From contig NZ_PZJW01000012.1 of the NCBI RefSeq assembly GCF_003206615.1, positions 62,001 to 126,000 on the forward strand: a DNA stretch of 64,000 nt, written 5' to 3'. The translations under genes were made by a program, and so were the position numbers. The stretch is from Salinicola acroporae. GTDB lineage: Bacteria; Pseudomonadota; Gammaproteobacteria; Pseudomonadales; Halomonadaceae. Each line of letters opens with the position of its first letter. Within the stretch, counting starts at the first letter, position 1. The notes below the pieces were generated by a model that did no database searches, was not told where the DNA came from, and saw only the letters and a list, made by a program, of their open reading frames with translations. Of the stretch, positions 3,575 to 16,752 are shown piece after piece.

Positions 3575-4198
3575 ATGGCCTATTCCTACCAGAGACTCGA
3601 CAAGCACGATGTCGCCGTGCTGATGATCGATCACCAGGCCGGCCTGCTATCGCTGGTTCGCGACTTCGGCCCCGACGAGTTCAAGAACAACGTGATGGCG
3701 CTTGCCGATATCGCCGAGTTCTTCGACCTGCCGACGATCCTGACCACCAGCTTCGAGGATGGCCCCAATGGGCCGCTGGTGCCGGAACTGAAGGCGAAGT
3801 TCCCCGGTGCGGCTTATATTGCCCGCCCCGGCCAGATCAACGCTTGGGACAACGAGGAGTTCGTCCAGGCCGACAAGGAGACCGGCAAAAAGCAGCTGTT
3901 GATCGCCGGTGTGGTCACCGATGTCTGCGTCGCCTTCCCGGCCCTGGCCGCGCGCGAAGCAGGCTACGAGGTCTTCGTCGTCACCGATGCCTCCGGCACC
4001 TTCAACACGTCCGTGCGCGACGCCGCGTGGAGCCGCATGTCCCAGGCCGGCGTGCAGTTGATGAACTGGTTCTCGGTCGCCGGCGAGCTGCACCGCGACT
4101 GGCGTAACGACATCGAAGGCTTCGGCGGCATCCTCGCCAATCACCTCCCCCACTATTCGAACCTGATCCAGAGCCGCGATGCGACGCTGAAAAACTAG
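3575..4198 (+). CDS. ycaC: Isochorismatase-family hydrolase, YcaC-like
   Basis: A 207-residue cysteine hydrolase closely resembling E. coli YcaC over its whole length. The YcaC-type triad is in place: Asp19 (MIDHQ), Arg84 (YIARPG) and Cys118 (GVVTDVCVAFPAL); the C-terminal helix ELHRDWRNDIEGF is also typical. The natural substrate of YcaC proteins is not established. I use the ATG at 3575, preceded by AAGGAG at good spacing, rather than the overlapping GTG at 3572. It probably shares regulation with the pirin gene upstream. Confidence 0.9.
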   Translation: MAYSYQRLDKHDVAVLMIDHQAGLLSLVRDFGPDEFKNNVMALADIAEFFDLPTILTTSFEDGPNGPLVPELKAKFPGAAYIARPGQINAWDNEEFVQADKETGKKQLLIAGVVTDVCVAFPALAAREAGYEVFVVTDASGTFNTSVRDAAWSRMSQAGVQLMNWFSVAGELHRDWRNDIEGFGGILANHLPHYSNLIQSRDATLKN

Positions 4199-4215
4199 CC
4201 GAGAACCGCAACCGT

Positions 4216-4241
4216 GCTGCCGCCCCACCCGGCGCGGCAGC
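4216..4241 (+). terminator. Probable rho-independent terminator after ycaC
   Basis: GCTGCCGC pairs with GCGGCAGC around a 10-base loop, followed by CTCTTT. It lies 18 bases after the ycaC stop, in the region where ycaC and the TauE-family gene converge. Confidence 0.55.
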
Positions 4242-4325
4242 CTCTTTGCGCCGGGGAGCCCCCCCCCCCGGAAGCGAGACGCCAGGCCACGTTGACGCTC
4301 GATCCTGGACATTCGCCCGCCGGCC

Positions 4326-5081
4326 CTACAGCGCGAATGACCCCAGCGCACTCTTGCCCACCAGCACCACGCCGAAGACGATCAGCATCATGAGAACCAC
4401 CTTGCGGAAGGACTCGGCACCCATCCGCTGGCGCACGGCCCCGCCAAGCCGGGTGCCGACATAGACCGGCACCAGCCCCGCCAGCGAAATCCAGATCGAA
4501 TCCGCCGTCATCAGGCCAAGCTTCGCCAGCCCCAGCGCCATGATCAGGCTCGACAGCGTGAAGGAGATATTGATCGCCTGGATGAACCGCTTGGGATCGA
4601 GCCGCAGCGCCAGCACGAACGGCAGAATCGGCATCACCTGCGACCCGGTCGTGCCGTTCACCAACCCGGTCAGGAATCCCGAGACCGGCGCCAGCTTGCG
4701 CCCCAACCGATCCGATAACGGCCGCCCGGGGCGAAACAGCGTGAACGCCCCGTAGACGATCAGCACGACGCCGAGTATCGCGCCGGCCACGAGACTATCG
4801 ATGAGGTCCAGCACGGTGAGGCCGAGCAGCAGGCCGGGAATGGTCGCCAGGAACATCGGCCAGAAGCGCCGCAGCGTCTCGCCGAAGTGCCCCGCCTGCC
4901 GCATCACGATGAGATTGCTGACCAGCGAAGGGATGATCACCAGCGGCATCCCCGACTTCAGACCCAGGCCCAGCGCCAGGATGGGCAGCGCGGAGGTCGA
5001 AAAGCCGAGGCCAGTGGCGCCCTTGACGAAGGCCGCCACCAGATAGGCAAAGGCGATGATAAAAATCGTTTCGAGATTCAC
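4326..5081 (-). CDS. TauE/SafE family permease
   Basis: A 251-residue polytopic membrane protein of the TauE/SafE (DUF81) family, with about eight hydrophobic helices and the repeated glycine-rich signature: FVKGATGLGFSTSALPIL near the N-terminus and GLVNGTTGSQVMPIL in the second half. Members export sulfite, sulfoacetate or related organic anions; the substrate here is not determinable. The open frame extends upstream to 5276, but that part is not membrane-like, and GTG at 5081 (start of VNLETIF) gives the family-typical N-terminus. The ribosome site is weak. Convergent with ycaC. Confidence 0.85.
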   Translation of the reverse strand: MNLETIFIIAFAYLVAAFVKGATGLGFSTSALPILALGLGLKSGMPLVIIPSLVSNLIVMRQAGHFGETLRRFWPMFLATIPGLLLGLTVLDLIDSLVAGAILGVVLIVYGAFTLFRPGRPLSDRLGRKLAPVSGFLTGLVNGTTGSQVMPILPFVLALRLDPKRFIQAINISFTLSSLIMALGLAKLGLMTADSIWISLAGLVPVYVGTRLGGAVRQRMGAESFRKVVLMMLIVFGVVLVGKSALGSFAL

Positions 5082-5184
5082 AACGCATCCATAAGGCACA
5101 GAGCTCGCGCGATGGGTTAGATGGAAAGTGTGTGCCGAGCCCCAGGAGCGGGCCATCCTGCCAGTGCCGGGCGATCCGCCAGCG

Positions 5185-5628
5185 CTAGCCCGGCGAGATC
5201 GATGTTTCGGCCAGCCTTTTGAGCGCGAGCAGATCTTGGCGAACCCAATCGGCATCCCGCTCGAAGGTTGCCTCATCCATGCCGGGCTGCCTGAAGAGGG
5301 TCAACTGAACTTCCGCCCCTGGACCGTTGGCGATTACCCGCAACGGTACATAGACCACCTCGCCCGACGCCAACTCAACCCAATGATCCATGACGCCGTA
5401 AGGGTTGTGGTCCGTAAAGCGGATCAGGACAGATCCCCCTGGCCCTTTTGCCAACCACCTACCTTCCTGCTCGACCAACTCGGCCTGACTCAGTCCGGAT
5501 GCCCAGGTCGGAAAAGCCTCTGGGCGCCAGAAGGCCTCATACAGTGAACGCCAAGGACGATCAACGGTAATGCCAAGCGTGATGGCCTCGTTCATATCGA
5601 TAGCGCCTACGGCATCGGAGGGAATCAT
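5185..5628 (-). CDS. SRPBCC (START-like) family protein
   Basis: A 147-residue single-domain protein with the polyketide cyclase/START-like fold pattern: an opening strand (ITLGITVDRP), the helix with WRSLYEAFWRPEAFPTWASGL, alternating strands, and a long C-terminal helix (ADWVRQDLLALKRLAE). Such proteins bind hydrophobic ligands; none is predictable. A second in-frame Met at 5595 is an alternative start; neither has a strong ribosome site. It marks the GC-rich left border of the AT-rich island that follows. Confidence 0.72.
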   Translation of the reverse strand: MIPSDAVGAIDMNEAITLGITVDRPWRSLYEAFWRPEAFPTWASGLSQAELVEQEGRWLAKGPGGSVLIRFTDHNPYGVMDHWVELASGEVVYVPLRVIANGPGAEVQLTLFRQPGMDEATFERDADWVRQDLLALKRLAETSISPG

Positions 5629-6007
5629 TCTAGCGACGCCATCTCCCGATCAGGATTGGGTATTGGTCGATAGATAGAGAGAAGAGGATGGTTAGCGTTA
5701 CTGGACGTGGCGTATCAGCAGGAATGCCTCATAAGACGATGGCTTGGCCCATAAGCAAAGGTACGAAGCAGGACTAGAAAAACGTCCTAAACATATGATT
5801 TAAGAGTGGAAAGGCGTTATAGAAAAATAGATCTATGCCATTGGGTATGCCACAGGATGCAATCAAAGTGTCACACCTTCCCCTGTGCGATAGCTCGCCT
5901 CGAGGGGGCTTAGGATCATAAACTGATGTCGAGTCAGACCTAATAGAGCGCCAGCCATCAGCCGCGCGAGGTACTAGCGTCGACCGCATGGCCTTGTTGG
6001 ATCGGAT
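5629..6007. other. Intergenic region at left edge of AT-rich island; no supported gene
   Basis: About 380 bases without a convincing gene. A 71-codon minus-strand frame (5774-5989) has no ribosome site, no recognisable domain and an unnatural composition, so I leave it out. Base composition shifts here from GC-rich to clearly AT-richer. I see no tRNA, integrase or clean direct repeat that would define an attachment site. Confidence 0.5.
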
Positions 6008-6646
6008 TCACCAAAATCGCCCTTCCATCAGAGCCAGATGTCGGTCAAGCTCATGCATAAAGCTCGGTCGATTCTCCATTATCCAATTCTGCCCTTCTTC
6101 ATTCAGTCCCCATTGGCCTTCGTCTGTGTGATACACAAACTCTTCCAAATCGAGCAGGTGTGGATTCAGGCGCTTCTCCGCTTCGTCTGAAAGTGAAAGC
6201 GAAAACACAGAACCTACTGTAGTTCTCGATCCCAGACCAGTGGACTGCTCAAGCACGTCGGCATTGAGCAATGCCGACACGGCGGGCTGCTCAATCGGTA
6301 GTTTGACCGTCCGTGAAGCAGCAATAAAGAATTCACGAAGAACGGCTTTTTCAGCTTTATCCATGTTTTCCAAGCGGTTCCGAACAGACTCTCTTCGTCT
6401 TCGCTTGAGAAAATGACCTAGTACTCGATGATACATCCAGACGACACACTCGATGGCCAGGATCGCGACGCTAACAAGGAGCGCAATACCAAAGTACGGA
6501 CCATATTCTTCTCTAAATTGGAGAAGGGAGAGGTACTGCAAAGTCGACGCAGGCGAAAACATCACGAGCGAGGTAAGTAACGCGACTGCGCCTACAAACT
6601 TCGTCGGAACCTTCGCAAGATCGACGATTCGTGAAAACCATTCCAA
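6008..6646 (-). CDS. SieB-like superinfection exclusion family membrane protein
   Basis: A 212-residue protein with two N-terminal membrane helices (about residues 17-36 and 46-70), a basic stretch (RRRRRESVRNRLE) and a soluble C-terminal region with the KAVLREFF...PAVSALLNADVLEQ pattern I associate with the SieB superinfection-exclusion family, known from the lambda/P22/Rac prophages. I place the start at TTG 6646 because a perfect AGGAGG sits six bases before it; a TTG at 6664 lies upstream of that site. It is the third gene of a co-oriented AT-rich set, 81 bases after the HEPN-like membrane gene. The family call is from pattern memory. Confidence 0.62.
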   Translation of the reverse strand: MEWFSRIVDLAKVPTKFVGAVALLTSLVMFSPASTLQYLSLLQFREEYGPYFGIALLVSVAILAIECVVWMYHRVLGHFLKRRRRESVRNRLENMDKAEKAVLREFFIAASRTVKLPIEQPAVSALLNADVLEQSTGLGSRTTVGSVFSLSLSDEAEKRLNPHLLDLEEFVYHTDEGQWGLNEEGQNWIMENRPSFMHELDRHLALMEGRFW

Positions 6647-6727
6647 GTTCAGCCTCCTGTCCAACGCCCGGCCCTGGGGCTAAATGTAGCAAAGCGTAAC
6701 GCAACCTCTAGCAGCCGCTTATTAATA

Positions 6728-7494
6728 CTATTCACCCAAACTTTCAAACTCTTTGAGCATCTTAATACCCATATATATTGCTTCGTGCGCATGCTGTTCT
6801 GATATTTTTTGTCCGTGTATCGCGGCATTGCAAACCTTTAAAATGTAGTCGAATGAACTATGCAGACCTTTGTAGTTCGGTTTTTGGTTTACAAGCTCAC
6901 GAAACAATTGCCTTGCAGACAAGTACTTCGACTTCATAGATAGCGGATCTGCGGTTTGTGTACGCTTCCCTAGAATATCCCTCATGGATTTCTCCAGCTC
7001 CATTCTAAGCTTAGCAAGCGCAAAGTTGGGATCATTTCCAGATTGATTAAGATAAGCTTCTAACTCATCTTCCATCTTATCAGGAGACTCTTGATCATTC
7101 AAAGTTGAATCAAGTTCTTCTTTTGCCTCTTGAACTTGCTCTTTGCCAGGAAGATGCACATTAACCGTTTGGCTTACAGCGTTAGATATTGCAGTAATCA
7201 TATTGCTATAAACATTGAGGAATTCGCGAGCTTCCACTTTGAACTCGGCCACCTCCGCTTTTACCTGAGACATCTCTTTCTCAAAAGTTAGCAATTTTCC
7301 TAGGCTTATTTTTTTGCCATAGGTAGGAGCAAGAAGAAAATAGCCAACACCAATAAAGTCAAAGAAGAGGTCCCAATGTCCTCCTTTGGAGGAATGCCAA
7401 TGCCGTATAGGCCCATTAGAAGAAATCCGACACCTATAAAACGGCATAGAAATGGAAATATATCGAAAAACAATATTGCTCTGATTTTCCCCAC
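6728..7494 (-). CDS. Membrane HEPN-like protein, reading frame split at an A7 tract (needs -1 shift)
   Basis: The N-terminal 62 codons start at GTG 7494 behind a good AAGGAAG ribosome site and encode two membrane helices (about residues 12-31 and 43-60), ending at TAA directly after seven A residues (plus-strand T7 at 7309-7315). Reading on in the -1 frame gives 193 further residues: a coiled-coil-like stretch (LLTFEKEMSQVKAEVAEFK) and a helical C-terminal domain with LRMELEKSMRDILG and CNAAIHG, resembling the DUF4145/HEPN group but without the usual Arg of RNxxxH. The joined product would be 255 residues. The tract is a canonical A AAA AAA slippery heptamer, so programmed frameshifting, transcriptional slippage, true mutation and sequencing error are all possible. 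Confidence 0.62.
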
Positions 7495-7619
7495 TGAGCT
7501 TCCTTTTGATTTTTACCCGACTCGAGGAGCGACCTTTTGATGGCGACTTTTGGGCGTGTTTTTGCACAAAAGATGACGGCGGAAAATTGTCCGGCGCGGC
7601 CGTTTGTTACAAAGCATTC

Positions 7620-8408
7620 TCAGAATACCGTCTTGATCACTTTTTGAATGCCTTCGACGAGCTCAAGCACGTCTTCCTTTGTAGGTTCTCGGTCTTTGTT
7701 GTGATCACAAAGGTTCCGCAAATCACCAAGATGCTGAATAAACCTCCACTTCGGGGTATCTATTATATCGTTCTCTTTCAGCAACTGATAAAAATCGGCT
7801 ATAGATGAGTGCTTCTTTCGAGACTTAAGGCTATGCATCTGGCAAACGTGGCCGAGGTGCTTTTCTAGAACCACGCCAGCAACTGCCCCAGCCCCTCGAA
7901 CAAACCCTTTTTTTGCTAACTCTTGTGCGGCACTGAGCTCGGAATCAAAAAGGTCTGCTTGCAGCACCTCCTGAATGTCAAAAAGCGAACTATCTAAACG
8001 CTTTTCTACAGCAACTAGAATCGAATTTTGCACTTGCATTTTTACTATGGCCGCTGACTTATCTGCTATAACACTCTTCTGATAACCTCTGGTTGTTCTG
8101 AGGCCGTATAAGTAATCCGATATACCGTAGGTGAGAAACGAAACTTCCTTTCTTTTTTCATCCTTGTACTGGCGCTTAAAATCTTCAAGACGATCAGGCA
8201 ATAATTGCTTGATCAAAGCGAGAGCTTCCGAATACCAAGAATCATAATCGGTTGTAAAATTGGGAAGCTTTACCTTGCTCTTTTTCAATTGCGTAGTTAT
8301 CTCATCAGGCAACCCAGAAACTTCGTCAAGCATGACCAGATAAAGGTGATCGCCTCTAGCAACAAGAGAGCGGACTTCCTCTTTAATGGATTCAATTTTA
8401 GATGCCAC
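7620..8408 (-). CDS. HEPN-domain protein with intact RNxxxH motif
   Basis: A 262-residue soluble protein, mostly alpha-helical. The C-terminal part reads as a HEPN domain: a helix with GAGAVAGVVLEKHLGHVCQ, then HLGDLRNLCDHNKDREPTKEDV, which contains the Rx4H ribonuclease motif (Arg-Asn-Leu-Cys-Asp-His). The N-terminal half has no family I recognise. HEPN proteins with this motif are often metal-independent RNases in toxin-antitoxin or abortive-infection systems. Start GTG at 8408, with GGAGAG five bases upstream. First gene of the AT-rich set; 125 bases separate it from the membrane HEPN-like gene. Confidence 0.68.
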   Translation of the reverse strand: MASKIESIKEEVRSLVARGDHLYLVMLDEVSGLPDEITTQLKKSKVKLPNFTTDYDSWYSEALALIKQLLPDRLEDFKRQYKDEKRKEVSFLTYGISDYLYGLRTTRGYQKSVIADKSAAIVKMQVQNSILVAVEKRLDSSLFDIQEVLQADLFDSELSAAQELAKKGFVRGAGAVAGVVLEKHLGHVCQMHSLKSRKKHSSIADFYQLLKENDIIDTPKWRFIQHLGDLRNLCDHNKDREPTKEDVLELVEGIQKVIKTVF

Positions 8409-8970
8409 AGCTCTCTCCTGTGCTCTGTAACAGGAATTAGGTAGCAGGCGCGTTTTCTCACTTGAACGGGCATGCGCGTTTCACATTTTCGTGCCGCCAC
8501 TTTAACTACCTGATCTCCTTGTGAGTTTTGATGAAACTGTTAAATAGCCCTCATAAATGAGCCTGCAGCCTCGCCTATATGCTCCCTGAGTTCGGAACCT
8601 ATCAGACCTCTCAGGTTCTCCCAAGAACACCGTTTGTATCAATTTGCCACATTTCATTTCACTTCTCTATCTAAAGTCTCCCGCCTTTCGTCGAGTGGAC
8701 TGCAAAACGCATCATTCCGCATCGTTTTTCAGGACTCCTGATCGCTCCGCCGCCCCAGTACTGACGCGGCTTAGAGTCCACTGCAACACTGCATCAAAAT
8801 CGACCCATTTAGTGCGCAGGCGGGGCGGGGAGTCGACAGCGCGCAGGCGGGTTGCGGCGAGATAGGGGCAAGATGATGGCCACAGCGGCGTGGCCAACCA
8901 CTTTCCGCGACAGCGACTCAATGATTTTGCAGTCGACCTGCCCGCACGCCCCCGCTAGTCAGGTTGTGAA
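8409..8970. other. 562-base gene-free region, right edge of AT-rich island
   Basis: From 8409 to about 8690 the sequence is AT-rich and presumably holds the promoter of the HEPN gene. From about 8700 to 8960 composition returns to GC-rich, with short frames on both strands (8644-8865 plus, 8712-8921 minus) that lack ribosome sites and recognisable domains. The stretch may be a decayed coding relic. The words GTGGACTGCAAAA near 8694 and AGTCCACTGCAAC near 8774 partly resemble each other, but I do not see a convincing attachment duplication. Confidence 0.45.
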
Positions 8971-9843
8971 CTAGGCAAAGTCGGCATTGCCTTGGAAGAA
9001 GTCGAGGAGCGCGCTGGCCAAAGCCTCCGGCGCTTCCTCAGCCATATGGTGGCCGCAGTCCAGCCCATGCCCCACTACCGATGTCGTCCAGGGACGCCAC
9101 ACCTCCAGCACGTCGCCATAGAGTCGCTCCAGGTCGTCACGTAATGACCACAGCACCATGGCCGGGCACTGGATTCGTCTGCCCTGCTCGCGGTCCTCTC
9201 GGTCGTGCAGGTGATCCACGCTCAGACCGGCGCGGTAATCCTCGATCATGCTGTGAACGGTGGCCGGATCGTGAATGGCTCTATGGAAGTCAGCAAATGA
9301 CGCTTTCCCCATCGCTTCGGGATCGCCGCCGTACCAGGCATCTGGATCGGCCAGGACGGCTCGCTCTGGCTTTTCAAATTGCGCGAAAAAGAACCAGTGC
9401 CACCACTCTGTGGCGAAACGCGCATCGCACCGTTCCAGCGCCTCGAGAATCGGCACGCCATCGAGAATGACGGCTTTTTCGATAGCCTCGGGGTGATCCA
9501 TCGCCGTGCGGAAGGCCGTATAACTCCCTCGGTCGTGGCCGACGATGGAGAAGCGGTCGAAGCCGAGGTGCCGCATCAGCTCGATGCAGTCCCGTGCCTT
9601 GGCGCGTTTGGACGATCCGGAGTGGTCGGGTGTGTCGGCGGGCTTGGAAGACTCTCCGAAACCTCTCAGGTCGGGGCAGACGACGGTGTGATGAGCGGTC
9701 AGTAGCGGCGCCACGCGATGCCAGGTCGTGTGCGTCCGCGGATGGCCATGTAACAACAGGATCGGCGGTCCGGATCCGCCATACCGCACTCTCAAGGTCG
9801 CTTCGGATAGCGCTACCCTCTCCAACTGAAACCCTTCAAACAT
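8971..9843 (-). CDS. Haloacetate (fluoroacetate) dehalogenase-like alpha/beta hydrolase
   Basis: A 290-residue alpha/beta hydrolase resembling fluoroacetate dehalogenases. Present are the oxyanion region HGHPRTHTTWHRVAP, DLRGFGESSKP, the Asp nucleophile in GHDRGSYTAFR, the cap-domain HW pair in WWHWFFFAQF, EDYRAG with the halide-binding Tyr, and a terminal His in CGHHMAEEAP. The first carboxylate-binding Arg (DR) is kept, but the second, normally three residues later (DRGAR), is Tyr here, so haloacetate specificity is uncertain. I use ATG 9843; GTG 9846 overlaps it. It lies downstream of a TetR gene in the same direction with a gap of 127 bases. Confidence 0.82.
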   Translation of the reverse strand: MFEGFQLERVALSEATLRVRYGGSGPPILLLHGHPRTHTTWHRVAPLLTAHHTVVCPDLRGFGESSKPADTPDHSGSSKRAKARDCIELMRHLGFDRFSIVGHDRGSYTAFRTAMDHPEAIEKAVILDGVPILEALERCDARFATEWWHWFFFAQFEKPERAVLADPDAWYGGDPEAMGKASFADFHRAIHDPATVHSMIEDYRAGLSVDHLHDREDREQGRRIQCPAMVLWSLRDDLERLYGDVLEVWRPWTTSVVGHGLDCGHHMAEEAPEALASALLDFFQGNADFA

Positions 9844-9970
9844 CACGCCCCATCCTTGTCCGTGATTGGCACGGATTCAGGGTAGTCGCAACGCCCCCCG
9901 TTCGCTCACCGGGAGAGAGGGGGTTTCCGGGGTTAGGGCACTACGCCGGGTCTCTCCGTGACGGACGAGG

Positions 9971-10522
9971 TCATGTCCGAAGACGCGGCAGCAGTCTGGC
10001 CGCTATCTGCTTGGCTCTCTGAACAGGCTCGAGATTGCCCTCTCGTAGCACGCCCATGACGGCACCATCGATAAGCAGTTGAAAGTCGCAGGCGAGTTCG
10101 TGACTCGGTGAGTGGCCGGCTTGCTCGAGCACTCGAGCGATGATCCGTATCTGCGCCAGCTTGTGCTCTCGGGCGATGCGATGGGTCTCGCTGCCACGGT
10201 CGGCGGCTTCCACCATGGCATTGATGAAGGCACAGCCTCGAAAGTCGGCTTGTCCGTAGCGCTCGGCGATGACATCGAACACACCAAGGAGCGAGCTGTC
10301 ATTGGCGGCGAGACCTGCCTCGAGTGATGCCAGGGCGATCTCATTGCGGTGACGTAGCACGGCATGGACCAGCGCATCCTTGCTGTCGAAGTGACGATAG
10401 AACGACGCACGCCCCACGCCGGAGGTTTCTATCAACTCGCTGATGCCGACCGTATTGATGCCTCGTTGATAGAACAGCGCTTCCGCCGTCGCTATCAATC
10501 GCTCACGAGCCTGTATCGCCAT
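9971..10522 (-). CDS. TetR-family transcriptional repressor
   Basis: A 183-residue TetR protein. The N-terminal HTH is clear (ARERLIATAEALFYQRGINTVGISELIETSGVGRASFYRHF), and the C-terminal part matches TetR ligand-binding domains of the YezE/AcrR-like group (FRGCAFINAMVEAADR). The start is ATG 10522, with AGGGAAG seven bases upstream; an upstream in-frame ATG at 10549 lacks a ribosome site. It is divergent from the LysE-family exporter at 10667, with a 13-bp inverted repeat between them that is the likely operator. It probably represses the exporter and possibly itself and the hydrolase downstream. Confidence 0.9.
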   Translation of the reverse strand: MAIQARERLIATAEALFYQRGINTVGISELIETSGVGRASFYRHFDSKDALVHAVLRHRNEIALASLEAGLAANDSSLLGVFDVIAERYGQADFRGCAFINAMVEAADRGSETHRIAREHKLAQIRIIARVLEQAGHSPSHELACDFQLLIDGAVMGVLREGNLEPVQRAKQIAARLLPRLRT

Positions 10523-10560
10523 GGTCTTCCCTCTATGCGATGTTGACATTGGATGGTAAT

Positions 10561-10593
10561 GATCAGTACCGTTCTACGCAAACGGAACTGATC
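10561..10593. promoter_or_regulatory. Inverted repeat, probable TetR operator
   Basis: GATCAGTACCGTT and AACGGAACTGATC form a 13-bp inverted repeat with one mismatch, separated by seven bases, in the middle of the tetR/lysE divergent promoter. A TTGACA hexamer lies just upstream at 10543-10548. Size, symmetry and place fit a TetR dimer site. Confidence 0.65.
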
Positions 10594-10666
10594 GTTTCCG
10601 TCTCAGGGATAGCGCTTCAGGGTCGCCATCGCTTCGAAAAGACCCTACTCGGAGATTACGAGGCCC

Positions 10667-11260
10667 ATGTCGCAAGTCACTACGCTCGCTATCACGGCAC
10701 TGCTCTTGTTCGGCTCCCCGGGGCCGGGGCCAATGACGATCGTGGCGACATCCGCCACCTTCGGGATCCGCAAGACGCTTTCACTCTATGCGGGCATTTT
10801 GACCGGGCTGGCGATCTCGATGGTGGCCGCGGCCCTGGGCCTGGCTGCGCTACTGGCGGCCTGGCCTAGTGCAAAGCTGACACTGCAAATCGTGGGCGGG
10901 CTCTACGTGCTCTATCTCGCCTACCGCATCGCGTCCACGCCACTCGACACGAACGCAGCCGAAGGCGCCCGCCTGACGATGCGCGATGGCGTTCTCCTCA
11001 ACGTGCTCAACCCCAAGTCCTACGCGGTGTTACTGGTGATCTACTCACAGTTCTTACTGCCGCTATCGCCCACGGCTATCGCTTACGTTGCCACCATGGG
11101 GGTTTGCCTGGCGGTTGCCGTCTTCACCAATATCTTCTGGATGTGCGTCGGCGGCGCCATTCGGCCGCTCGTGCAGCGTCCTTTCTTCTCCAGACTGCTC
11201 CGCCTTACCTTCGCACTGCTGATGATCGGGGCGGTCTCCTGGGCTTTCGTTCAGAGTTGA
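10667..11260 (+). CDS. LysE/RhtB family exporter
   Basis: A 197-residue inner-membrane protein with six hydrophobic segments and the family N-terminus (LLFGSPGPGPMTIVATSATFG), the GLYVLYLAYR motif and LLNVLNPKSYAVLLVI. LysE/RhtB members export amino acids or related small molecules using the proton gradient. The substrate is not predictable. The divergent TetR gene and its operator suggest induction by the exported compound or a toxic analogue. Confidence 0.88.
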   Translation: MSQVTTLAITALLLFGSPGPGPMTIVATSATFGIRKTLSLYAGILTGLAISMVAAALGLAALLAAWPSAKLTLQIVGGLYVLYLAYRIASTPLDTNAAEGARLTMRDGVLLNVLNPKSYAVLLVIYSQFLLPLSPTAIAYVATMGVCLAVAVFTNIFWMCVGGAIRPLVQRPFFSRLLRLTFALLMIGAVSWAFVQS

Positions 11261-11340
11261 GTCCCCATTCATCGCCCGACCGGGCCATGGCCAACAGTGC
11301 CGGGGCCTGACATGGATATCGTCCTAGCGCGACACGAAAA

Positions 11341-11359
11341 GCCCCGCACGTGGCGGGGC
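11341..11359 (+). terminator. GC-rich stem-loop downstream of lysE-family gene
   Basis: GCCCCGC and GCGGGGC form a 7-bp stem around ACGTG. An AAAA run precedes it, so the T-run is better placed for minus-strand transcription; on the plus strand the tail is only GTTGTCTCT. It may work in both directions. Confidence 0.45.
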
Positions 11360-11383
11360 CGTTGTCTCTGCTGAAGCGGAATC

Positions 11384-11716
11384 GTGCATCGCCGCGCGGC
11401 GCTGGCAAGCGTCGCCAATGACTTCGGCTATGAGTCCGTGTTCTCACGCTATATCGAGGCGGTCGGCATGGAAGGCGATGTACTCTTCGGGCTTTCGACC
11501 TCCGGCAACTCCGCCACCATCATCCGAGCCGTCGAAGCGGCCCGAGCGAAGAAGATGCTCGTCATTCTACTGACCGGCAAGGATGGCGGTAAATTGGCGG
11601 GTCTGGCGGATGTGGAGGTTCGCGTGCCCCACTTGGGCGACGCCGACCGGATTCAAGAGATCCATATCAAGGTGATCCACACCATCATCCTGATGGTCGA
11701 GAAGCTGGTGGCCTGA
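11384..11716 (+). pseudogene. gmhA: gmhA 3' fragment (sedoheptulose-7-phosphate isomerase remnant)
   Basis: The 110 residues match the C-terminal half of GmhA-type phosphoheptose isomerases, with the SIS-domain motifs [29 protein letters not shown] and [13 protein letters not shown]. The usual protein is about 190 residues; roughly the first 80, with the N-terminal helices and the CGNGGS motif, are missing. A TGA stop lies 12 bases upstream in frame and the GTG at 11384 has no ribosome site, so this is a truncated relic. The reading frame itself is intact to its stop, suggesting recent truncation. It ends 29 bases before tRNA-Arg. Confidence 0.8.
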
Positions 11717-11745
11717 TCCTGGGATAACGCGGGAGAGGAAATAAC

Positions 11746-11822
11746 TGGCGCCCGAAGCAGGACTCGAACCTGCAACCCACGGCTTCGAAGGCCGGTACTC
11801 TATCCAATTGAGCTATTCGGGC
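11746..11822 (-). tRNA. tRNA-Arg (anticodon UCG)
   Basis: The minus strand folds into a 77-base cloverleaf: 7-bp acceptor GCCCGAA/TTCGGGC, D arm GCTC/GAGT, anticodon stem CCGGC/GCCGT (outer pair mismatched C-U) with loop CTTCGAA, T arm GCAGG/CCTGC with loop TTCGAGT, discriminator G and encoded CCA. The anticodon TCG reads CGA arginine codons. Confidence 0.93.
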
Positions 11823-11914
11823 GCACGGCGCAGAAGATAACATTGCTCGGGCCTCCGATGCGAGTGCATCGGGGCCCGAAATGAAGTGCCCGACCCCTGG
11901 CACTTGTCCGGCGC

Positions 11915-12598
11915 TTAGTGCGCCATCATCTCTTCGGCGACTTCCTCACCGCTCAGGTCGGAGGGGTAGTAGGTCGGCCAGTTGGTGACCTCCTCGAGCA
12001 ATGCTTGTCGGTCGTCGCCCATGTAGAGGTGGTAGTGGTCCGCATCGTTGGGCGCTATGGCGTGATCGCTGAACTGGAAGTATTTCGGCGCTTCCTCGTC
12101 GCCGCCTTCCCGCTCGAAGATATAGCGCACGCCGCGATTGCCGGCTTCATAGGTCAGAATTTCATGGCCGTCGTAGACGTACTCGCCGGTATGCGCTTCG
12201 TCCCCTTCGTAGAAGGTGACATCGTCGCCGTCGATGACGATCCGGCTCACGTCGGTCTGATAGCCCTTCTCGTAGTAGGCCTTGTATTCGGCCGCCGTCT
12301 TGTCGCCGTGCGCCGCCTTGTGGGCAAACACCGGGTCGAGGGTGCCGTCCTGCAGGTAGGGATAGACGGACTGCCAGTCCCCTTCCCAGTCGGAAAGCTG
12401 GCGATCCTCGACCTGGTCGTCGTCGAAGTAGCCGGCGTCAATGTTCTTGTCCTGGCCATGGTCATGAGCATGATCGTGGTCATGGCCGTGATCGTCATGG
12501 CCGTGATTGTGATCCGCCGCCCAGGCGGTTGAATAACTCCCCACCGTCAATAGTCCGACCACCACCACACCCGCGCTGTGCGCTGACAACAATTTCAT
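11915..12598 (-). CDS. zinT: ZinT/YodA-type periplasmic zinc-binding protein
   Basis: A 227-residue protein with a signal peptide (cut predicted after AWA, about residue 27), then a His/Asp-rich metal-catching segment (HNHGHDDHGHDHDHAHDHG), then the ZinT domain: LSDWEGDWQSVYPYL, YKTDVSRIVIDG-like and the C-terminal ligand cluster DHYHLYMGDD. ZinT captures zinc (and cadmium) in the periplasm and helps the ZnuABC importer in zinc shortage. A Zur-like palindrome sits about 54 bases upstream of the start. No znu genes are adjacent. Confidence 0.92.
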   Translation of the reverse strand: MKLLSAHSAGVVVVGLLTVGSYSTAWAADHNHGHDDHGHDHDHAHDHGQDKNIDAGYFDDDQVEDRQLSDWEGDWQSVYPYLQDGTLDPVFAHKAAHGDKTAAEYKAYYEKGYQTDVSRIVIDGDDVTFYEGDEAHTGEYVYDGHEILTYEAGNRGVRYIFEREGGDEEAPKYFQFSDHAIAPNDADHYHLYMGDDRQALLEEVTNWPTYYPSDLSGEEVAEEMMAH

Positions 12599-13866: not shown

Positions 13867-14820
13867 TCAGCGGCCGAGGCTCTCGCTCGCTTTCGACGTC
13901 TCGCCGTGGGCGGGCACGCCGCGCTGTTTCCAGTATCCCGCCAGCACCGAGCCGGAGACATTGTGCCAGACCGAGAACAGCGCTCCCGGCAGCGCCGCGC
14001 CGGCGGTGAAGAACTGGTTGGCGAGTGTGACCGCCAGCCCGGAATTCTGCAGACCCACCTCGAAGGCGATGGTGCGCGCGGTGCGGATATCGAAGCCCAG
14101 CGCGCGGCTCAGCCAGTAGCCACCGGCGAGGCCGATGCTGTTGTGGGCGATGACGGCGATCGCCACGATCGGCCCCAGCGTTGCCAGGTTGCCGGCGTTG
14201 AGCGCGACCACGATGGCGATGATCAGCACGATGGCGGCCATGGCCAGCGTCGCCAGGGCCGACTCGATCTTGCGGATCCGTGCCCCCAGCAGATGGTGGA
14301 CGACGACCCCCAGCGCAATCGGCGCGATCACCAGTTGCGCGATGCTCATCAGCATGCCCAGAACCGGCACGTCGATGGTCTGGCCGACCAGCAGCCAGGT
14401 GATGAACGGCGTGGCGACGACCGAGATCACGGTGGAAACCATGGTCATCGAGACCGACAGCGCCACGTGGCCGCCGGCGAGCCAGGTCATCACGTTGGAG
14501 GAGGTGCCCCCGGCGGTGGCGCCGACCAGAATCATCCCGGTGGTCAGCTCCGGGCTCAGGCCCAGCACGCGGGACACCAGCAGCGCGGCCACCGGCATGA
14601 TCAGGAACTGCAGCACCACGCCGACGGCGATCGGCTTGGGCGCCTTGATCACGCGGGCGAAATCCTCGCGGGTCAGGGTCAGGCCCATGGCGAACATGAT
14701 CACCACGAGCAGCGTCTTGATATCCGCTTTCAACCCGACGAACAGCTGCGGCTCGAAGGCGGCGATGACGGCCAGCAAGACGGCCCAGACCGGGAACAAC
14801 CGGTTGATGCGTTCAAACAT
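13867..14820 (-). CDS. Bile acid:sodium symporter (BASS) family transporter
   Basis: A 317-residue membrane protein with about ten helices and both BASS signature regions: MFAMGLTLTREDFARV with GATAGGTSSNVMTWLAGG in the first half, and ARTIAFEVGLQNSGLAVTLA in the second. Bacterial members carry organic anions such as pantoate/ketopantoate (PanS) with sodium; the substrate here is not known. It starts at ATG 14820 and is followed by an intergenic repeat and a strong terminator. Confidence 0.88.
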   Translation of the reverse strand: MFERINRLFPVWAVLLAVIAAFEPQLFVGLKADIKTLLVVIMFAMGLTLTREDFARVIKAPKPIAVGVVLQFLIMPVAALLVSRVLGLSPELTTGMILVGATAGGTSSNVMTWLAGGHVALSVSMTMVSTVISVVATPFITWLLVGQTIDVPVLGMLMSIAQLVIAPIALGVVVHHLLGARIRKIESALATLAMAAIVLIIAIVVALNAGNLATLGPIVAIAVIAHNSIGLAGGYWLSRALGFDIRTARTIAFEVGLQNSGLAVTLANQFFTAGAALPGALFSVWHNVSGSVLAGYWKQRGVPAHGETSKASESLGR

Positions 14821-15025
14821 GATGATGTGTCCTAGCGATGGTGTGACTCGCCGATGGGGCGAGCCGGGGCCGCTCGAGCGGCTCTGTCGGGATCGATACG
14901 AAAAGAAGCCACGGTTCCGATATCGACCGGGCGCGCTATTCTGCCGTACCGCGAGCCGCGACTAAATAGGCAAAAGGCGGCAGATGCCGGGGTTTCCCGC
15001 CCCCGGCCGGCAAGTCGATGGGGAT

Positions 15026-15754
15026 TCAGTCGCCGAAACCGCCCTGCTCTCGCCACCGTGCCGCCAGCGCCGGCACGCCCTGGCTGGCCGGTTCCGCAAC
15101 GGGGCTGACGCCGGGCGGCGCCAGGTCGCGGGCGTGGGGATCGACCAGCCAGCACGGCGCCTCCAGCGGGGCCTGTTCCAGCAGCAGCGCCGCCGGCATC
15201 ACCGCCAGCGAGGTGCCGACCACCAGCAGCGCATCGGCCTCGGCGACGATGTCGCAAGCTTCCGCGTAGCGCGGCACCGCCTCGCCGAACCAGACCACGT
15301 CAGGGCGCAACTGGCTACCCTTGTCGCACAGATCGCCGATCGCGATGGTGCCTCGGGCCGAGATCTCCTCCACCGGGTAGCGCAGATTGGCATCGACGGA
15401 CGAGCGCGCCAATCGAATCTCGCCGTGCAGGTGCAGTACATGGCGGGAACCGGCGCGCTCGTGCAGGTCGTCGATATTCTGGGTGACCACGCTGACCCGG
15501 AACCCCGCAGCCTCGAGCTCGGCCAGCGCCAGGTGGGCGGCGTTCGGGCGCGCCCGGCGGGTCTGCTCGCGCCGCTCGTCGTAGAAGCGCAGCACGGTCT
15601 CCGGATCACGCGCCCAGGCTTCGGGCGTTGCTACATCCTCGACACGATGGTTTTCCCACAGGCCGTCGCCGTCGCGGAAGGTCCTGAGGCCGCTCTCGGC
15701 GCTGATGCCGGCACCGGTCAGCACCACCAGATGGGGTTTGGTGTGATCACTCAT
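15026..15754 (-). CDS. cobB: Sir2-family NAD-dependent protein deacylase lacking zinc cysteines
   Basis: A 242-residue sirtuin with the NAD-binding GAGISAESGLRTFRD motif, TQNIDDLHERAG and the catalytic His110 in HLHGE. Tyr58 and Arg61 give the YxxR pair that in CobB and SIRT5 accepts succinyl/malonyl groups. The small domain lacks the usual two CxxC zinc pairs: where cysteines are expected the sequence reads ARSSVDANL. Zinc-less CobB-type proteins of this shape exist in other bacteria, so it is likely functional. The symbol is assigned by family. Confidence 0.85.
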   Translation of the reverse strand: MSDHTKPHLVVLTGAGISAESGLRTFRDGDGLWENHRVEDVATPEAWARDPETVLRFYDERREQTRRARPNAAHLALAELEAAGFRVSVVTQNIDDLHERAGSRHVLHLHGEIRLARSSVDANLRYPVEEISARGTIAIGDLCDKGSQLRPDVVWFGEAVPRYAEACDIVAEADALLVVGTSLAVMPAALLLEQAPLEAPCWLVDPHARDLAPPGVSPVAEPASQGVPALAARWREQGGFGD

Positions 15755-15936
15755 GACGCAATGCGCCTCTCTTCAGGCTGGACCTTCAGCGAGGCTAGCA
15801 TAGGCAGGCGCCGCGAACATCCGACGCCGGTAAAAGCCAAGCGACCCTCGATCCTGTTCGAACGCTCGACAGGCCCTTGAGATAACCCGGCCCAACCCCG
15901 ACAATAGCGACCCGTTCCGCTTTGCGAGCCCATTTC

Positions 15937-16752
15937 ATGACCGCGACGCTTGCCACGACCGTGCGCCCGGCGCCGCTGGCGGTGATCTACCGCGATGCGC
16001 GGCTGGTCGCCGTGGCCAAGCCGCCGGGCATGCTGGTGCATCGCACGGCGCTGGCCCGCGGCGAGACCCGCTTCGTGATGCAGACGCTGCGCGACCAGCT
16101 TGGCCAGCACGTCTATCCGGTCCATCGGCTGGACCGACCCACCGGTGGCGTGCTGCTGTTCGCGCTGGACAGCGAGGCAGCGGCGGCATTGACGCGCTCC
16201 TTCACCGAGCAGCAGGTGAACAAGCGCTATCTGGCCGTGATTCGCGGCTGGGGGCCGGAAGCGATCAGCGTCGACGCCCCGCTGCGTGAGGAGGATGGTA
16301 TTCGACCCAAGGCGGAGATGCCGGCGCAGGCGGCGCTGACCCATTTTCGGCGCCTGGCGACGGCGGAGCTTCCGGTGGCGATCGACCGCTATCCGCAGTC
16401 ACGCTACTCGCTGATGGAAGCGCGGCCGGAAACGGGGCGTCGCCACCAGATCCGTCGCCATCTGGCCAGCTGCGGTCATCCGATCATCAATGACGCCAAG
16501 CACGGCAAGGGCATTCACAACCGCTATTTTCGCGATCACCTGGATTGCCCGCACCTGCTGTTGTCCAGCGTACAATTGACGCTGACACACCCGTTCGAGG
16601 GTCGCCGACTGACGCTGGAGGCGGCCCCCGACGACCATTTCTCCGCCCTGCTCATCCGGTTCGGCTGGCAGGCGCACCTGACGCGAAACGACGCCCGCTG
16701 GCAGACTTCCGACGACAGCATGACGCCAGCCGAACCGAGCGATGCCTTTTGA
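15937..16752 (+). CDS. truC: RluA-family tRNA pseudouridine synthase TruC-like
   Basis: A 271-residue single-domain pseudouridine synthase. The catalytic Asp lies in VHRLDRPTGGVLLFAL; an ETGRRHQIRRHLASCGHPIINDAKHG motif and C-terminal strand LTLTHPFEGR complete the RluA-type fold. No S4 domain is present, which together with length and the KPPGMLVHRTAL opening matches TruC (tRNA psi65). I use ATG 15937; a TTG fifteen bases earlier is in frame. The end overlaps the next gene, suggesting translational coupling with tcdA. Confidence 0.82.
   Translation: MTATLATTVRPAPLAVIYRDARLVAVAKPPGMLVHRTALARGETRFVMQTLRDQLGQHVYPVHRLDRPTGGVLLFALDSEAAAALTRSFTEQQVNKRYLAVIRGWGPEAISVDAPLREEDGIRPKAEMPAQAALTHFRRLATAELPVAIDRYPQSRYSLMEARPETGRRHQIRRHLASCGHPIINDAKHGKGIHNRYFRDHLDCPHLLLSSVQLTLTHPFEGRRLTLEAAPDDHFSALLIRFGWQAHLTRNDARWQTSDDSMTPAEPSDAF

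Follow-up and report, generated by a model that had tools for sequence, protein, structure and literature searches.

Three reading frames of low guanine-plus-cytosine (GC) content lie side by side in the window, a stretch of 64,000 nucleotides from the Salinicola acroporae contig NZ_PZJW01000012.1, and the question they raise is whether their products work together. The original prediction had read them as one undescribed three-gene anti-phage system, in which two membrane proteins sense infection or hold a HEPN RNase in check. We compared the three genes, designated here G1 (HEPN-type protein), G2 (membrane HEPN-like gene) and G3 (SieB-family protein), with their relatives, and compared the locus with the same region of sister species and with libraries of known defence genes. 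The locus is very probably the integrase-less remnant of a small chromosomal integron that sits at a defence hotspot, and G1, G2 and G3 would be three independent cassettes, likely defence genes, rather than parts of one system.

The insert, its gene relatives and its attachment sites

The list of open reading frames (ORFs) of the window contains three minus-strand frames in this region, at 6008-6664, 6728-7567 and 7620-8408. GC was 43-48% in 1-kb steps over 6001-8500 and about 58-69% outside 5001-9500, confirming that the genes are lower in GC than both flanks. The absence of a housekeeping context, which had also been noted, holds for the insert itself. Three co-oriented frames are indeed present, but G2 is not one open gene, as described below. 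Comparison of the flanks with those of sister species placed the complete insert at 5938-8592 (no strand assigned). The flank at 8592/8639-8938 was common to the window and four sister species (G010, G011, G009 and G016), and the flank at 5764-5937 matched that of G011 at 73%.

We then looked at whether the three genes travel together. The original prediction had proposed to list genomes with the same gene order; among 80 compared loci and the regions from G203, G047 and G039, the window's own locus was the only one to hold even two of the three. In 369 genomes of the class, G1 was matched in 7 and G2 in 3, the latter count including two marginal matches (G596 and G463) that were not taken as G2, and both genes were present only in the genome under study. 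Among 201 genomes of the family, G1 was matched in 10 and G3 in 6, and both were matched only in the genome under study (G000) and in G177, where the two genes lie on different contigs and the G3 match is weak. G2 was present in 2 of 146 relatives, the genome under study included.

The relatives of each gene were found as cassettes beside attC sites. All five family relatives of G1 that match beyond the HEPN tail adjoined attC; four weak HEPN-tail matches (G232, G234, G040 and G147) are excluded from this count. With all spacers judged by eye, the site flanked the gene on both sides in G203 (83% identity to G1), G089 (57%, downstream copy eroded), G196 and G177 (52%), and in G190 it was located upstream of an incomplete gene at the end of a contig. 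Cut integrases were also found in the G203 and G177 stretches. For G2, attC was present on at least one side in all four relatives, from Chromohalobacter moromii (G056), a Vibrio alginolyticus plasmid, Salinivibrio sharmensis and Pseudomonas sp. BMS12, and the C. moromii cassette had a cut integrase nearby that matched a family integrase at 88% over 67 residues. Both close relatives of G3 were likewise cassettes, with attC on both sides in G039 and with a downstream attC and a cut integrase nearby in G047; three weak matches (G177, G246 and G212) were not counted as close relatives.

These observations bear directly on the idea of a single three-gene anti-phage system whose membrane proteins sense infection and restrain the HEPN RNase. 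Such a system would be consistent with the shared strand, the shared low GC and the fact that all three protein types are plausible defence proteins. However, no second locus in the searched genomes had two of these genes, the relatives of each are cassettes beside attC and G2 is broken in the window, and we consider a single system very unlikely. The proposal that the membrane proteins hold the RNase in check is likewise unsupported.

The insert carries an attI site, the conserved core of which lies at 8428-8480 on the minus strand, just upstream of G1. It was recognized by a search of the family, by the neighbouring integrases and by alignment with C. moromii. With 96 bases (8395-8490) as the query, the block was found in 38 of the 201 family genomes, the genome under study included, and this number is a lower bound because it does not include the copy next to G2 in C. 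moromii. The block was 81% identical over 53 bases to the C. moromii region between the cut integrase gene and the G2 cassette. We examined 25 attI places including the window's own, and later added a place on contig 11 of the same genome and one in G011. An integron integrase, whole or cut, was situated 65-256 bp upstream of the block in 11 of the 24 outside loci and was divergent in all 11, which is the position of attI; the remaining 13 loci had no integrase within the examined stretch. At the window locus no intI adjoins attI, and a search of the first 20 kb of the window gave no integrase. In the whole genome no match to the integron integrase model TIGR02249 exceeded the cut-off of 265; the best reached 80.5 bits over model positions 237-303, and short matches to this model are near-universal (95 of 97 genomes at E 0.001). 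Since the attI block is common to arrays that do bear an integrase, the locus fits an integron remnant. The same genome holds a second integrase-less attI on contig 11 (L123, about 8100-8152), with five genes running from 8080 down to 4059 and attC-like spacers.

Behind the three genes we located attC-like sites on the minus strand by half-site profiles. The profiles of the ends were trained on 16 sites of relatives, the Salinivibrio site included; three of 19 regions gave no end pair and were dropped. The site after G3 (5938-6002) has a decayed 3' end, and it stops at the base next to 5937, where the flank in common with G011 begins. The site after G2 (6659-6727) has a decayed 5' core and aligned with the attC of the Salinivibrio cassette, with which it shares 52 of 72 aligned bases, the AAC core being changed. 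After G1 the site is decayed further (7532-7612, lower end approximate), and only its 5' half (7612-7589) is recognizable. The 5' halves were found 8, 1 and 6 bases past the stops of G1, G2 and G3 (p = 0.005, 0.02 and 0.0002, respectively, in a 30-base search), and the corresponding p-values of the 3' halves were 0.88, 0.0013 and 0.23. As a control, we ranked the signal among 195 window ORFs of at least 100 aa. Some of the chosen training 3' ends look wrong (G203 downstream and G039b), and the ranking excluded both of them as well as the Salinivibrio site. G3, G2 and G1 ranked 1, 4 and 24 by both halves and 1, 18 and 6 by the 5' half alone. None of the three window sites had been recovered by an earlier, strict attC search.

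Taken as an integron remnant, the locus would have arisen from a small integron whose attI gathered G1, G2 and G3 one by one, each cassette bringing a ribosome-binding site and an attC-like site of its own. The integrase gene would then have been lost, with attC decaying in part behind G2 and G3 and losing one half behind G1. The genes may be expressed from a promoter on the attI side. A scan of promoters and terminators found 6 and 3, respectively, as compared to 4.1 and 3.6 in shuffled sequences.

Properties of the three cassette genes

G1 (7620-8408, minus strand, cassette 1) encodes a soluble protein of 262 aa with a C-terminal HEPN-type domain, assigned from the ORF, the motif alignment, a structural search and the relatives beside attC. 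Its Rx4H motif is R-N-L-C-D-H. The pattern RN[LI]CDH was found in all eight aligned rows (the window and seven relatives), with R, N, C, D and H invariant, in agreement with the predicted soluble HEPN protein with an intact motif. When a model of G1 (pLDDT 61) was searched with Foldseek, its C-terminal half was placed on the HEPN chains 2hsb and 1o3u, with TM scores (by target) of 0.74 and 0.69 and weak E-values of 0.11-0.14. The Pfam HEPN match was under the cut-off (E = 0.024), and a sequence search of the PDB gave no convincing chain match. Because the C-terminal half of the model was placed on HEPN chains and the RNxCDH residues are invariant, we read G1 as most likely an RNase effector that would cut RNA or halt growth upon phage infection. 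The N-terminal helical half is likely to be the sensor.

G2 had been described as a membrane protein of two helices that ends in a HEPN-like tail, but the helices and the tail are not in one open frame. The first piece (7306-7494, minus strand) is a 62-aa frame with two hydrophobic stretches and a GTG start behind AGGAAG, and it was 49-63% identical to the start of the four relatives, which are in frame. The second piece (6728-7315, minus strand, cassette 2) is a 195-aa helical tail with 82% identity to that of Salinivibrio sharmensis. The frame changes at seven consecutive A (7309-7315, minus strand; A AAA AAA followed by TAA), so that the membrane helices belong to ORF 7306-7494 and the tail is in the frame of ORF 6728-7567, the first ~80 residues of which have no counterpart in the relatives. 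All four relatives are continuous across this point and lack the A run. The tail carries the motif C-N-A-A-I-H in the window and in all four relatives, and therefore the catalytic arginine of Rx4H is missing. Pfam DUF4145 matched G2 at E 0.04-0.1, under the cut-off. Foldseek gave nothing at E 0.001 and, below that level, a weak HepT resemblance, the PDB sequence search with G2 returned no convincing match and the tail had no match in IMG/VR.

Since the G2 frame is broken in the assembly, either the gene is dead, or slippage on the A run yields a little of the product, or the sequence was misread; most probably the gene is disabled in this strain. We considered whether programmed -1 frameshifting on A AAA AAA before TAA could yield a single G2 protein, or whether changes in the A run could make the gene phase-variable. 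A AAA AAA is a heptamer of the classic slippery type, and here it occurs exactly at the frame change and directly before the stop. Furthermore, the tail frame is open for 195 codons, as compared to 13 and 18 stops in the two remaining frames of the strand. However, the slippery run is not conserved, as the four relatives read through without it. No folding signal was detected downstream of the run (z = 0.64) and no Shine-Dalgarno-like stimulator was seen upstream of it by eye, so that the features expected of a programmed site, a conserved slippery sequence with a downstream structure or an upstream stimulator, were not found. In addition, the tail had accumulated 15 changes on the window branch as compared to 7 on the Salinivibrio branch, a hint of relaxed constraint on the window gene; in an NG86 estimate of nonsynonymous to synonymous rates (dN/dS), the synonymous sites were saturated. 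We therefore judge frameshifting or phase variation unlikely, and it was rejected as the main account of G2. The break may instead be a sequencing or assembly error in an ordinary in-frame cassette gene. Homopolymer runs are error-prone, one lies at the break and the remainder of the G2 frame is intact, but the run is short and stretches of seven A or T occur three more times in the window, and this explanation appears rather doubtful to us. If made, G2 would be a HEPN-like protein that is anchored in the membrane by its helices and lacks the catalytic arginine, and its role would be in binding or sensing, not in cutting.

In Pseudomonas sp. BMS12, the cassette array beside the G2 relative (L039, 4339-11729) contains several small HEPN-like proteins; among these, Pfam HEPN and MtlR matches were above the cut-off and RiboL-PSP-HEPN matches were under it.

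The third gene, G3, is listed as an ORF from 6664, but the start is most likely the TTG at 6646, because AGGAGG precedes it and the resulting length of 212 aa equals that of the nearest relative. On this start the gene spans 6008-6646 (minus strand, cassette 3), and it was assigned to the SieB family by Pfam and by its relatives. The match to Pfam SieB (PF14163) had an E-value of 4.1e-32 and a score of 111.2 bits (cut-off 26). Together with two hydrophobic stretches in the N-terminal part, this bears out the predicted two-helix SieB-like protein. Judging from its family, G3 would most likely exclude phage at the inner membrane, as SieB does.

Defence matches in the inserts of sister species and in further attI arrays

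Beyond the shared flank, which is on the abhydrolase side, each of the four sister species carries a different insert of 39-44% GC. One of these inserts has GmrSD_N (NsnA model, 8.5e-49) with a HEPN protein, another HSDR_N with a sub-threshold HNH match, another a Stk2-like gene (3.1e-12) with an ApeA-like HEPN protein (PDC-S58, 8.1e-90), and another LmuA/LmuC/LmuB-like genes (LmuB, 3.2e-118). No attC signal was found behind nine scored genes of these inserts by a test that, for genes of known arrays, recovers the 5' half in only 4 cases of 10, indicating that the hotspot is not always an integron.

Seven attI places of the genus were considered (two in the genome under study and those of G009, G014, G017, G004 and G011); the G011 place was read outside the family scan, and elsewhere some of the genes were scanned. 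Each of the five other scanned arrays contained at least one defence match. In G014 (L125, G014:C29, 2484-7760), an integrase over the cut-off, with its N-terminus in another frame, is followed by attI, a PD-T4-7-like gene (5.3e-14), LmuA (1.5e-149) and LmuB (3.4e-248) with a clear attC behind, and the two-gene Lamassu unit apparently is a whole operon in one cassette. The G009 array has a sub-threshold Mrr match, then attC, then PsyrT (6.2e-255) and PsyrA (2.4e-128). Among the five genes on contig 11 of the genome under study were AbiJ_NTD5 (2e-31) with a TIR-type match and Mrr (2.7e-26), and two of the four genes scanned there had no match in either library. G017 had PDC-S39 (5.2e-41) in its array and a ThsB match (7.8e-155) nearby on the opposite strand, and G004 had a PD-T4-3-like gene (4.3e-13). 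Outside these arrays, two genes that match a CBASS cyclase (6.8e-85) and NucC (6.2e-88) stand immediately before the attC upstream of the G1 relative in G203 (L071, 8418-10806), where two of four scanned genes had no defence match; three C. moromii cassette genes had none either.

The predicted anti-phage function is not supported as that of one system, but it has indirect support from the SieB family, the HEPN motif, the integron context and the defence-like genes that sister species carry at this spot. The cassettes might instead serve stress dormancy, plasmid exclusion or a toxin-antitoxin function, and passages of PMC3710099 do propose that integron HEPN proteins induce dormancy under stress. 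Against this stand the defence-like genes at the hotspot and in the other attI arrays of the genus, and we regard such functions as possible, though on the improbable side.

A number of observations weigh against our interpretation of the locus as an integron remnant with defence cassettes. A direct match to the far border of the insert was obtained in G011 only. The attC after G1 is poor, being above chance in its 5' half only besides its low rank by both halves, and in known arrays the test missed the 5' half behind 6 of 10 genes, although 8 of the 10 had a 3' half with a high score. No promoter upstream of G1 was recognized in the scan. PADLOC 2.0.0 (2023) gave no good match, the best E-values being 0.0017 for G2 and 0.0065 for G1 with none for G3, and weak PADLOC scores are unspecific, since the flanking merR gene of G010 also matched at 9e-8. 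The defence counts at the hotspot and in the arrays are raw counts of library matches. Finally, none of the G1 relatives examined outside the family was beside attC: those of Paraburkholderia and G594 lack it, and two others are in virus contigs (five weak class-level matches besides G594 were left out of the locus inspection).

The two virus contigs, both from IMG/VR, carry the G1 relatives as cargo at L041 1-816 and L040 4989-5777. On one of them we noted what we take to be a phage-type integrase, and on the other, neighbours that presumably resemble a P2-type portal and terminase. The occurrence of these relatives beside phage genes, and the fact that SieB is by name a phage family, as in lambdoid phages, could suggest that the genes of the window are prophage cargo. 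However, inspection by eye of the ORFs in the insert and close to it revealed no phage gene, attI and attC-like sites are present, and the nearest relatives are in integron arrays, which makes prophage cargo extremely unlikely.

Anti-phage genes have been published as integron cassettes (PMC12409362, PMC12444791), and passages of these papers cite Darracq et al. 2025, Getz et al. 2025 and Kieffer et al. 2025 for integron cassettes as anti-phage libraries. As far as the libraries are described there, they are like the window in having attI, attC-bounded cassettes and several defence types per array. Unlike those libraries, again by description, the window array is tiny and integrase-less, lies on a Halomonadaceae chromosome and has partly decayed attC. 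The papers that turned up in searches on integrons in Halomonas and Halomonadaceae contained no treatment of defence cassettes in their titles and abstract beginnings. G3 has the same domain as SieB over nearly the whole model, but it is on an integron cassette rather than in a prophage and has about 50 residues past the Pfam match at its C-terminus. A HEPN family of integron cassettes is also known, its description reportedly being that of Anantharaman et al. 2013. According to passages of PMC3710099, this 'Integron cassette HEPN' family (PDB 3jrt) has an Rx4-6H HEPN domain and is proposed to be a dormancy-inducing RNase. By that description, G1 is alike in being an Rx4-6H HEPN protein on an integron cassette and differs in its extra N-terminal helical half and in the lack of a convincing PDB chain match. 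Membrane-associated HEPN proteins are described in section 15 of PMC3710099, and as far as that section goes, G2 shares with them a membrane segment and a HEPN-type helical domain and is unlike them in having two helices, a motif without arginine and a DUF4145 match under the cut-off.

Integron anti-phage cassettes, cassette HEPN proteins and membrane HEPN proteins are thus known, and the attI-linked defence genes of the genus are the part worth following. What was supposed to be a new multi-gene system becomes a set of separately testable cassette genes, and the published idea of anti-phage libraries extends to small integrase-less arrays of Halomonadaceae, in which attI may mark sites of defence genes. 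If G1 alone protects, it would be a compact single-gene HEPN defence common to integrons and prophages. Tentatively, we suggest that the small integrons of the genus may be dedicated immune loci that take up one to a few defence cassettes, as single genes or as operons such as Lamassu and PsyrTA, and often then lose the integrase so that the set is frozen. In the window array, G1 might then represent a novel HEPN RNase that defends as a single gene and has spread both on cassettes and with prophages, and G2 might be a novel HEPN-like sensor that is bound to the membrane and has no arginine in its motif.

Surroundings of the insert

In a search of Rfam over 4000-12000, tRNA alone reached the gathering score. 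NCBIfam yielded no useful match. The TauE- or START-type neighbours were more distant in G010, G011 and G016, and neither was found in the G009 stretch. RluA-, Sir2- and bile-acid-symporter-type genes are located a few kb from the integron both in C. moromii (L025, 16410-19986) and in the window (13867-16752), in reversed order. A neighbourhood shared with the C. moromii integron was considered; among 20 loci it was seen only in L025 and L037, both covering that stretch, and it was not built upon. Relative to G010, the window lacks at 8939-8950 a putative cation-efflux gene (identified by eye) and most of the merR gene, and this absent stretch is placed between the abhydrolase gene (8971-9846) and the insert.

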